From NCBI GenBank assembly GCA_949878435.1, contig CATLAK010000004.1, positions 62,001-126,000 on the forward strand: a stretch of DNA of 64,000 bases, written 5' to 3'. The notes below the pieces were generated by a model. The model was given only the letters and a program-made list of their open reading frames with translations, was not told the origin of the DNA and did no database searches. The DNA comes from an uncultured Lachnospiraceae bacterium (GTDB taxonomy: Bacteria > Bacillota > Clostridia > Lachnospirales > Lachnospiraceae). A program made the position numbers and the translations under genes. Shown piece by piece: positions 3,710 to 36,445 of this stretch. The number at the start of each line of letters is the position of its first letter. The first letter of the stretch is position 1.

Positions 3710-4912
3710 TTAAATTAAATCGTCTAATGAAAAGAAATCGGAAAGGGGGCGGCTTTGTTTTTTGCGGGTGATTTCCACGATTCCCAGCGCGGTCATATCC
3801 ACCAGCCGGGTTCCGGACTTATCTTCTTTTAAATAGCCGTCTAAGGTTTGAAGGAGTGTCTGGTTATCTTCCTCAGTGTCCATATTGATGAAATCCACCA
3901 TGATCATGCCGGAATAATTCCGAAGGCGCAGCTGCCTTGCCACTTCCTTTGCCGCTTCAAGATTCACTTTCAGGTAGTATTCCCGGCTTTTTTTGCCTTT
4001 GCTTACGGTCTTTCCTGAATTGACATCGATAACTATCATCGCTTCCGTGGGCTCTATGACCAGATACCCTCCGCAGGGCAGCCATACCTTCCTGCCCAGC
4101 ACTTCTTTCAGGTGTGTCTTCAGGCTGTAGAGCTTTGATAAAGCAAGCAGTTCATCCTGATAAAGCCGGACATCCTTGTCTGTCAAGGCACTCTTTAGTA
4201 TTTCATACACTTCGGCATCGTCCGTTACGATTTCTTCATAGGAAGAAAGAGGGATATTTTTAATCCTGCTTATAACTTCCGTTTCCCTGCGATGGAAACA
4301 AGTGTAGCAGGTTCTGTGCTGATAGGCAGCATGCAAAGTGCGGAAAATAGCAATAAAAGACTTCATTTCCTCAAAAAAAGGGGTAAAGTCCTGCAGGTTT
4401 TCGGCATTGGTGCGGATGGTGAAGGAATATTCCTTCCGTCCGTCCAGTTCCCACTGACCCAACGCCTCTTTGATCTGCTGCTTTTTTTCTGCGCTCAATT
4501 TCCGGGAATAAGAAATGCCGTGTCCCCAATAATTGCACACACAGTACTGACCGGTCAAGGACAAATCGAGGGAGGCGGAAGGCAGCTTTGTTTTCAGCGC
4601 TTCCCCTGTAATCTGGACCACCACCTCATCCTCCTGGTGCAGCACATCTCCTTCCGCCCAGTTTCTGTTTACTGCCAGCACATTCTTTGCATTCCCAAAA
4701 GGCAGATATACCATCTGCTTTCCGTCAATGGAGAGGAATGCGCCGTTCATGCCGGGAACAACATCCTTTACTCTTGCAAGATAAATGTTTCCCAGAATGC
4801 CTTCTTGCCCGGGAAGGGATGCGGTTTCCATAAGGGAAGGTCTTTTTCCCTCAAATAAGGTTATTAAAAGCCTGTCTTTTATTCTGGTGATCACCAATTT
4901 ACCCATTTGCAA
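3710..4912 (-). CDS. rng: Ribonuclease G/E family protein
   Basis: This is an endoribonuclease of the Rne/Rng family, which cuts single-stranded RNA during rRNA maturation and mRNA decay in the cytoplasm. The N-terminus (residues 1-110) contains the S1-like RNA-binding insertion with GNIYLARVKDVVPGMNGAFL. The catalytic DNase I-like part carries both expected magnesium ligands: Asp296 in VIDVNSGK and Asp340 in MIMVDFINM. The protein ends in the usual MTALGIVEITRKK segment at about residue 385 and lacks the longer C-terminal zinc-link and scaffold of RNase E, so at 400 residues it is a minimal RNase G type. Its start overlaps the preceding gene by 14 bp, which implies translational coupling. 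In relatives rplU-rpmA usually follow; here the large secreted gene does. Confidence 0.93.
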   Translation of the reverse strand: MQMGKLVITRIKDRLLITLFEGKRPSLMETASLPGQEGILGNIYLARVKDVVPGMNGAFLSIDGKQMVYLPFGNAKNVLAVNRNWAEGDVLHQEDEVVVQITGEALKTKLPSASLDLSLTGQYCVCNYWGHGISYSRKLSAEKKQQIKEALGQWELDGRKEYSFTIRTNAENLQDFTPFFEEMKSFIAIFRTLHAAYQHRTCYTCFHRRETEVISRIKNIPLSSYEEIVTDDAEVYEILKSALTDKDVRLYQDELLALSKLYSLKTHLKEVLGRKVWLPCGGYLVIEPTEAMIVIDVNSGKTVSKGKKSREYYLKVNLEAAKEVARQLRLRNYSGMIMVDFINMDTEEDNQTLLQTLDGYLKEDKSGTRLVDMTALGIVEITRKKQSRPLSDFFSLDDLI

Positions 4913-34875: not shown

Positions 34876-35250
34876 TTAATCAATCACTCTAACACCTTCA
34901 ACAAAGATGTTTATTTTTTCGATTTCTATTCCTGTAAATTCCTCGACTTTATATTTTACATTGCTGATCAGATTGTCGGAAACTGCTAAAATGCTTACAC
35001 CGTAAGCCACAATAATATGAAAATTCAATATCAGCTTATTATTTTTGACCGCTACATTGATTCCCCTGGTCATGCTATCCATCTTAAGCAGTTTTACAAG
35101 ACCGTCTTTTACATTAATGCCTGCCATCCCCACAACGCCAAAGCATTCCATCGCCACGCTGCCTGCATACTGGGCAATCACTTCACTGTCAATTGCAATA
35201 CTGCCCATATGCGTATTCATAGAAGTTCCCTTCATGGAAGAATTTTTCAT
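34876..35250 (-). CDS. Asp23/Gls24 family envelope stress protein
   Basis: This 124-residue protein belongs to the Asp23 (YloU) family, linked to the envelope and to alkaline shock in staphylococci. The family segment VIAQYAGSVAMECFGVVGMA and the later YKVEEFTGIEIEKINIFVEGVRV are both present. AAGGAGG precedes the first ATG; further Met codons at 6 and 11 are possible starts. A TATAAT box lies at 35286-35291, but I see only a poor -35 match. It is the first gene of asp23-fakA. Confidence 0.93.
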   Translation of the reverse strand: MKNSSMKGTSMNTHMGSIAIDSEVIAQYAGSVAMECFGVVGMAGINVKDGLVKLLKMDSMTRGINVAVKNNKLILNFHIIVAYGVSILAVSDNLISNVKYKVEEFTGIEIEKINIFVEGVRVID

Positions 35251-35350
35251 AGGCTGCCTCCTTATATTTTGAACATATATTAGTTATTATAACCGTAAAT
35301 TGGAAAAAAAGAAACAAAAAAAATTAAATTGTAAAAAACATTGGAACCGT

Positions 35351-35676
35351 TCAGCCTGTAAGGAATGGAGAGCAGCCCAGGGAGCGGACAGCACGGCGCA
35401 GATGGCGGCACACCTTATGTTTTCCAGTCTCCCCTCAAAATCGGATTTCACTAACAGAATGTGTTTAGGAATTTCAAGACGGTCGGGTCGGAGCCAAGAC
35501 GGCATCCATGCCGTTTGGCTCCTAAAATCGCCATCCATGGCGATTTTACCCTAGGCTCTCTCACATTCTGTAAGTGAAATTGCCGATTTTTCGCAGAGAC
35601 TGGAAAACATAAGGTGTGCCGCCATCTGCGCCGTGCTGTCCGCTCCCTGGGCTGCTCTCCTTTCCTTGCAGGCTGA
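35351..35676. repeat. Giant hairpin element A (about 326 bp)
   Basis: The arms 35351-35463 and 35562-35676 are inverted copies. One block, 35367-35431 against 35596-35660, is perfect for 65 bp. The inner arm has CAAAATCGGATTTCACTAAC opposite a variant with small indels. The centre carries two further hairpins: GGAGCCAA...TTGGCTCC (35490-35522) and AAAATCGCCAT/ATGGCGATTTT (35524-35547). No ORF or transposase is inside. It shares its core with element B. Confidence 0.9.
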
Positions 35677-35831
35677 ACTCATAACAAACCTCACTAAGCG
35701 CTGGTGTTTTAGTAAGACTCCCTATGGAATAAATTTCCTCTCTGAGCTGTACTCTGGCGGTCTGCAAAAACAACATTATTTTCTTCATGTCAGAATACGT
35801 TTCTACAGCTTATGGTTGAGTGATAACGCAG

Positions 35832-36145
35832 CACAGAGGTTTGTCTGGGTCTGGCGGGGCGCTTGGGGCTTTGGTAAGGCGGCGGCACATATGATTGGTT
35901 CCAGGATTTGCGAAAAATCGGCAATTTCACTTACAGAATGTAGAAACACCAGGGTGAAATCGCCACGGATGGCGATTTCAGGAGTCGCGCGGCACGGATG
36001 CCGCTGACTCCGACCCGTCCGCCTTGAAACACCTAAATACATTCTGTTAGTGAAATCCGATTTTGAGAGGAGCCTGGAACCAATCATATGTGCCGCCGCC
36101 TTACCAAAGTCCAAGCGCCCCGCCGGACCCAGACAAACCTCTGTG
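35832..36145. repeat. Giant hairpin element B (about 314 bp), opposite orientation to A
   Basis: Arms 35832-35905 and 36073-36145 are inverted copies with one substitution and one small indel, including a 37 bp perfect block. The inner arms repeat the core of element A in reverse orientation: TTTCACTTACAGAATGTA at left, ACATTCTGTTAGTGAAAT at right. The centre again has two hairpins: TGAAATCGCC/GGCGATTTCA (35955-35980) and GGAGTC...GACTCC (35981-36011), plus a linker CCGACCCGTCC matching A. The outer arms differ from A except for GGCGGCACA and TTCCAG. Confidence 0.9.
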
Positions 36146-36185
36146 TGGACTATCACCATCTCCACAAAAAATGTAAAATTTTTAC

Positions 36186-36214
36186 TTGCATTCTTATCTA
36201 ATATCTGCTATTAT
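36186..36214 (+). promoter_or_regulatory. Promoter of rpmB
   Basis: TTGCAT (36186-36191) and TATTAT (36209-36214) are 17 bp apart and point into rpmB, with a predicted leader of about 40 bases. It lies just outside the end of hairpin element B. Confidence 0.72.
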
Positions 36215-36259
36215 ACAACTGTTGTGTGTGTTTAATTTGAATTGTTAGGAGGTGCAACG

Positions 36260-36445
36260 ATGGCTAAATGTGATATTTGTGGTAAGGGCGTTCATTTTGG
36301 AAACAACGTAAGCCATTCTCATAGAAGATCTAACAGAATCTGGAAATCAAACATCAAAAGTGTTAAATGTAAAGTTAACGGAGCTTCCAAAAGAATGCAC
36401 GTTTGTACAAACTGTTTAAAGTCCGGAAAAGTTGAAAGAGCTTAA
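36260..36445 (+). CDS. rpmB: 50S ribosomal protein L28, zinc-ribbon form
   Basis: L28 is a structural protein of the large ribosomal subunit. The 61-residue product has the zinc-binding form: Cys4 and Cys7 in KCDICGKG, Cys49 and Cys52 in VCTNC. The internal GNNVSHSHRRSNRIW stretch is diagnostic. A longer in-frame reading starts at 36242, but ATG 36260 has AGGAGG at proper spacing. It is a single-gene transcript bounded by a promoter and terminator. Confidence 0.98.
   Translation: MAKCDICGKGVHFGNNVSHSHRRSNRIWKSNIKSVKCKVNGASKRMHVCTNCLKSGKVERA

Follow-up and report, generated by a model that had tools for sequence, protein, structure and literature searches.

Palindromic repeats with TwoAYGGAY cores, probable mobile DNA elements, at the asp23-rpmB junction of a Lachnospiraceae genome

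Two long palindromes, A and B, occupy the junction between asp23 and rpmB in an uncultured Lachnospiraceae bacterium. Both are probably copies of a MITE-like repeat, a palindromic mobile DNA element that is non-coding, is present in many copies and has a 166-bp core listed in Rfam as the TwoAYGGAY 'RNA'. Copies are dispersed through the genome, some sites are empty in relatives, arms change in concert, and cores are inverted or exchanged at some sites; target duplications and ends of insertion sequence (IS) type occur in few copies only. Three candidates had been offered in the initial annotation, and the dispersal, the patchiness, the empty sites and the few target duplications together favour the palindromic mobile element without transposase. 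Throughout, the window is the whole stretch of 64,000 nucleotides that was analysed, and G000 is the genome it comes from.

The pair at the asp23-rpmB junction

Self-complementarity and folding confirm two giant hairpins at the places where the initial annotation had put them (Table 1). Their predicted folds have z-scores of -26.5 for A and -21.7 for B, and for each none of 100 shuffles was equally stable. The arms of A (35349-35444 and 35583-35678) are 94% complementary and contain the 65-bp perfect block described earlier, while B is built from complementary blocks of 35, 56 and 19 nt (97, 88 and 95%, respectively) with a longest perfect run found of 37 bp. The elements lie 153 bp apart. Their inner parts are inverted copies of one another, 81-85% over 61-93 nt, and their outer arms are not; by Rfam strand the pair is divergent.

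Table 1. Features of the asp23-rpmB junction, in window positions
Feature	Position	Strand	Basis or remark
asp23, flanking gene	34876..35250	-	PF03780, Asp23 5.4e-28
Element A, whole palindromic unit	35349..35678	-	Self-complementarity and fold; outer end of GTTCAGCCTGCAAGG class
A, perfect arm block, left half, 65 bp	35367..35431		Sequence; pairs with right half
Core of A, RF01731 match, type I core	35431..35596	-	83.5 bits
A, AYGGAY loop (second hairpin)	35504..35509	-	Sequence
A, AYGGAY loop (first hairpin)	35533..35538	-	Sequence
A, perfect arm block, right half, 65 bp	35596..35660		Sequence; pairs with left half
Spacer between A and B	35679..35831		No strong match to other pairs' spacers in fetched loci
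Element B, whole palindromic unit	35832..36145	+	Self-complementarity and fold; outer end in no recognised class
Core of B, RF01731 match, type I core	35908..36070	+	90.6 bits
B, AYGGAY loop (first hairpin)	35965..35970	+	Sequence
B, AYGGAY loop (second hairpin)	35994..35999	+	Sequence
Promoter-like TTGCAT-16-TATTAT of rpmB, outside the pair	36187..36214	+	By eye; missed by promoter scan
rpmB, ribosomal protein L28, flanking gene	36260..36445	+	PF00830, L28 5.8e-21

The earlier statement that the elements carry no ORF stands in part: the region is crossed by mechanical ORFs, the longest of 124 aa, and a Pfam search with five of them (75-124 aa) gave no match at E 0.01. A consensus scan of 35240-36300, which is a weak test, fits the reported lack of a terminator T-run, with no terminator-like site (1.3 expected), and gave one promoter-like site against 1.9 expected. 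No target duplication is recognisable at A or B, and the survey of end classes found no IS4-type end on either.

The initial annotation had called for a comparison of this junction with that of relatives. The asp23-rpmB gap measures 1009 bp here and 158-289 bp in 25 same-genus loci, namely those of 29 others in which both genes could be placed. None of the 29 same-genus loci examined besides the window's own has an RF01731 match in the asp23 neighbourhood. In G008, whose Asp23 is identical to the window's, the gap is 289 bp and holds the outer ends of A and B alone, either by deletion of the elements or by their loss in assembly. Near asp23 in another relative, G023, lies a Clostridiales-1 RNA (RF01699, 98.9 bits; L122:2276-2434).

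Copies, placement and mobility

A covariance-model search, also proposed in the initial annotation, identified both cores as Rfam RF01731, TwoAYGGAY, well above the cut-off of 43 bits (Table 1). The model spans the core alone, with the arms outside it. Rfam gives the family the type label 'Cis-reg', Weinberg et al. 2010, in the text accessible, list it as probably RNA and not cis-regulatory (PMC2864571), and the accessible part of Gardner and Eldai 2014 likens its loops to CsrA sites and proposes a CsrA-binding sRNA (PMC4333381). In the literature, searched shallowly and with few subscription journals, we found no description of TwoAYGGAY as a mobile DNA repeat.

The initial annotation had let its finding depend on further genome copies, and these are plentiful: G000, an assembly 86% complete, has at least 78 RF01731 matches dispersed through it, 77 of them above the cut-off (150 of 178 candidates scored). 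The family was present in 16 of 59 other genomes searched, all of the same genus, with per-genome counts from 0 to at least 38. A sample of the bacterial family gave at least 45 of 299 genomes with a match, the window's own included, at most nine candidates being scored in each. Within the genus the distribution is patchy. Copy numbers and empty sites may, however, be distorted because draft assemblies end at some copies. A pattern scan of named genomes returned 23 stretches, 22 titled Lachnospiraceae and one a Parachlamydiaceae MAG. The exact 19-base core motif CAATTTCACTTACAGAATG was also seen in one viral contig, L376 (IMGVR_UViG_3300028591_000367), at 4513-4531. Since copy number and orientation differ between related genomes, they speak against a chromosomal organisation site, another of the candidates first offered.

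Copies are intergenic, none lying inside a gene called by a home-made gene finder; as this finder missed rpmB, contexts involving small genes are unsure. Single copies have their 3' side closer to a gene in 40 of 59 cases (p = 0.009). In antisense context the 3' side is the closer one in 22 of 23 copies, at a median of 16 bp from the stop codon. This last arrangement would suit hairpins that, like REP sequences, are kept at 3' or 5' ends of messages to stabilise the mRNA or to terminate it, yet many copies lie upstream of starts, the window pair has neither U-run nor terminator-like site, and the G.U signature of an RNA stem is missing, so that we give this explanation very little credence. 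Pairs less than 700 bp apart are divergent in all eight cases in G000 and all four in G013; among the matches listed there are 13 further pairs, 12 divergent and one tandem (G226). One pair, judged by eye, has promoter-like sequence in its spacer, and its elements appear to be part of both genes' leaders.

Evidence of movement comes from empty sites and duplicated targets. The site of copy C3_118517 is empty in G008, where the flanks are 95-97% identical, and the flanks of the copy look like two diverged copies of a ~9-10 bp G008 target. Beside this empty site G008 holds ~894 bp of extra DNA relative to G000 (G008:C24:43912-44806, L308). At exact arm ends, 8-bp duplications with at most one mismatch were found in 5 of 118 copies against 0.1 in shuffles; they were not seen in the other 113, and none of the 118 showed a 7- or 9-bp duplication there. 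When copies were anchored on CAATG..CATTG ends, three of seven had a 10-bp duplication, with 0, 1 and 2 mismatches, and the remaining four had 6-8 mismatches and no duplication; none of 2000 mispaired draws reached two or fewer mismatches over 10 bp. The GTAAC-ended copies C5_53317 and C15_62596 fit an 8-bp duplication, and the two end classes, with duplications of 8 and 10 bp, may use different transposases.

In G019 the pattern CAATGTCANTNAGTTNAG occurs as an inverted pair at the two ends of a 1580-bp IS with a 10-bp duplication. The 18-bp end of this IS is the same as that on a few repeat copies, and its protein of 452 aa matches Pfam DDE_Tnp_1 (2.2e-25) and the NCBIfam IS4 family (5.4e-54). 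Relatives of the transposase occur in 12 of 37 genus genomes, own genome included, and ends of the IS type were present at 7 of 11 loci examined. The same query had no match in the copy-rich G013 and G034 and matched two separate pieces in the copy-rich G000. By outer end, 8 of 119 copies are IS4-like and 89 belong to no recognised class; IS4 mobilisation thus appears supported for a small subset of copies only. We propose that copies would spread in trans via the transposases of resident insertion sequences, of the IS4 family for copies with CAATGTCATTAAGTTAAG ends.

Several further observations concern insertion sequences. A split IS4-family transposase lies at G000:C33:26-1320, and CAATGTCATTTAGATAAG ends stand at two contig ends, including the end of G000:C13; all of these may stem from a single IS copy that assembly or decay has split. 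In G034 (L343, L344, L345, L353, L354, L328) 6 of 7 pattern hits have a TAATGTCATTAAGTTAAG-ended sequence at the first AYGGAY hairpin, which is also where the contigs break. Insertion of IS into REP palindromes, including an IS4-family IS, is known from the accessible part of PMC1525189. For the GTAACAGTTCAGCC ends no IS turned up, either as an IMG/VR match or by notice in fetched loci. The motif GTAACARTTCAGCC, found at some outer arm ends, also stands away from any type I or II core motif, at L252:1758 and at L235:2200 and 2875, where it may be the end of another mobile element.

Three other vehicles were considered and rejected. A trypsin-like gene between a pair at G000:C2 is present in 34 of 37 genus genomes and is therefore not the cargo of a composite transposon. 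Phage or plasmid origin found no backing, as the core of A matches neither collection and the 821-bp region matches no phage. A Y1/HUH transposase (PF01797) is found in 21 of 37 genomes, none of them the copy-rich G013, and is unrelated to copy number.

Stem mismatches and the upkeep of the palindromes

An RNA stem under selection tolerates G.U pairs and rejects A.C. Arms beyond the Rfam core were present in 75 of the 78 G000 copies, 32-200 bp long and 89-100% complementary, and for 26 of the 75 there is no similar arm elsewhere in the set. Across 7063 arm columns there were 175 mismatches, 65 G.U, 75 A.C and 35 other; 44 oriented copies of G013 and G008 gave 36 G.U against 49 A.C, and the pooled arms of these genomes 101 against 124 (p = 0.14). 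The cores behave alike, with 23 G.U against 22 A.C in 93 type I sequences and 9 against 8 in 17 of type II, 32 against 30 when pooled. As a control, 6S RNA from 29 genomes of the genus showed 206 G.U against 2 A.C, and still 43 against 2 under the strictest filter, which removes pairs below 70% Watson-Crick. Of 36 hits, 29 form this 6S set; six had no locus, and one truncated at the end of its contig was excluded. Core and 6S sets were recounted with the same three pair filters, between which the TwoAYGGAY counts were nearly unaltered. RNAalifold prefers pairs that contain G.U (223:4 for 6S antisense), a bias that runs counter to the equal counts here.

With G.U about as common as A.C in the stems, unlike in 6S RNA, pairing appears to be maintained at the DNA level. 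Judged by whether stems accept G.U and not A.C, the copies do not behave as members of a functional RNA family. Of the third candidate in the initial annotation, a structured noncoding RNA, the existing label RF01731 survives, but the stems are without the G.U signature of the control RNA. Cores from 29 loci of other genera agree, with 20 G.U against 17 A.C and 33 of 34 pairs varying. Outside the genus the outer arms have a lesser length and complementarity than here; 28 loci gave 42 G.U, 25 A.C and 82 other mismatches, so an RNA role is possible there.

These numbers bear directly on whether TwoAYGGAY is a true structured RNA that binds CsrA through two GGA hairpin loops, as a sponge like CsrB or RsmZ, the copies being sRNA genes or leaders. 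Such a role would account for the Rfam match of both window cores, for the matches to CsrA sites in the accessible part of Gardner and Eldai (PMC4333381), and for the 60 of 78 cores in which AYGGAY matches exactly twice, which places GGA in the loops. The pair that seems, by eye, to lie within the leaders of both genes and the outer-arm counts of other genera fit it as well. It would not account for 78 copies with very variable arms, for arms and cores in which G.U is not commoner than A.C, or for a window pair with no excess of promoters or terminators in the weak consensus scan. CsrA (PF02599) has a match in 33 of 37 genomes of the genus, among them copy-free ones; the four without a match are G016, G033 and the copy-rich G000 and G034. 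The absence of csrA weakens the sponge idea and does not kill it, because the G000 assembly is 86% complete. Overall we regard a CsrA sponge as improbable.

The mobile-repeat reading finds further support in how the arms change. We compared orthologous arms at 13 sites where G000 has a copy and so does G013 or G008. Both arms differed in 240 columns, one arm in 42, and 14 columns differed otherwise; gap columns were symmetric in 308 cases and asymmetric in 9, many of the symmetric ones reflecting merely unequal arm lengths. Six diverged sites (identity 0.66-0.73) gave 110 concerted against 19 single-arm columns, the 12-bp arm of G013 C70 being excluded; below an arm identity of 0.6, concerted change is indistinguishable from independent insertion. 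Two near-identical G000/G008 sites had no concerted, 12 single and 9 other differing columns, and arm correction is therefore not fast. Fresh changes would strike one arm and be corrected later, if at all.

Core orientation and type also differ between orthologous sites. Some 18 comparisons were classed by eye: the cores agree in 11, are in opposite orientation in ~5 and differ in type in ~2. Firm cases of inversion in situ, in which the homology of the arms is clear, number one or two. C11_45186 and G013_C36_140002 share their outer arm ends and have cores in opposite orientation, and in one species both arms lack a stretch of ~24 bp. The swap of core type is clear at L145/L078 and probable at L147/L075. 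In the accessible part of PMC8604942, homogenised arms and inverted spacers are products of template switching between inverted repeats, and PMC8794818, in its accessible part, has such switching giving multi-base compensatory change in hairpins. The repeat is probably homogenised by template switching; this, or gene conversion between inverted repeats, would keep the long arms perfect, rather than selection on an RNA stem.

A T.T mismatch is retained in every core with a readable motif, 87 of 87 in type I and 19 of 19 in type II. It persists though correction would erase it, and the core, unlike the arms, thus seems to be under separate selection. One way to read this is that the DNA itself folds, as a hairpin or a cruciform, into a signal for some enzyme of the host or the element, whose recognition would depend on the AYGGAY loops and the fixed T.T; the repeats would then be its binding sites and their mobility secondary. 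Watson-Crick-only covariation in the cores of the 29 loci of other genera, the invariant mismatch, the strictly divergent pairing (12 of 12 in G000 and G013) and the sequence inserted at the AYGGAY hairpin in G034 would all be expected of it. No protein partner was found, Y1 transposases do not track copy number, and the copies are missing from many relatives, so the putative signal would be dispensable; we consider this account unlikely, though less so than a CsrA sponge.

Implications and comparison with known systems

Retaining the mobile repeat as the best explanation, what is curated as an RNA family seems, for this genus at least, to form the core of a DNA repeat that is dispersed, and DNA-level correction explains its covariation better than RNA selection does. 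A wider proposal, which we put forward tentatively and hold to be possible rather than likely, is that RF01731 as a whole is a DNA signal and not an RNA family: an enzyme would recognise the hairpin or cruciform by its AYGGAY loops and T.T, and the signal would be carried through the Lachnospiraceae on self-repairing palindromes in which the arms re-copy each other and the core behaves as a cassette that is flipped and exchanged. If that were true, part of the covariation behind such 'RNA' families would be a DNA artefact. Counting G.U against A.C is a simple test and could be extended to all Rfam families whose function is unknown. With its ~75 natural palindromes, a single genome also offers material for measuring arm homogenisation and core inversion.

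The unit resembles the TwoAYGGAY RNA RF01731 of Weinberg et al. 2010 in that both window cores score above the gathering cut-off; it differs in its long copy-specific palindromic arms, its tens of copies and its covariation without G.U pairs. Like MITEs and miniature IS derivatives, the repeat is short, non-coding, multi-copy and intergenic, its arms are inverted repeats, and a few copies have target duplications and the terminal repeat of an IS4-family IS of the genus. In contrast to MITEs, a single long hairpin, variable in its arms, makes up almost all of the unit, and most copies lack a recognised IS end or duplication. With REP/BIME sequences, as described in the accessible part of PMC1525189, it shares extragenic palindromes, pairs in inverted order and a role as IS target, whereas the unit here is ~314-330 bp against 20-40 bp in REP and has no link to Y1 (RAYT-like) transposases.

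Template-switch correction of inverted repeats offers the closest parallel for arm homogenisation and spacer inversion (PMC8604942, in part) and for multi-base compensatory hairpin change (PMC8794818, in part), except that here dozens of natural copies of one bacterial repeat are concerned and the mechanism is one that we infer. MITE-like repeats, template switching and IS insertion into palindromes are each known singly; what is unusual is their combination, and its bearing on a curated RNA family.
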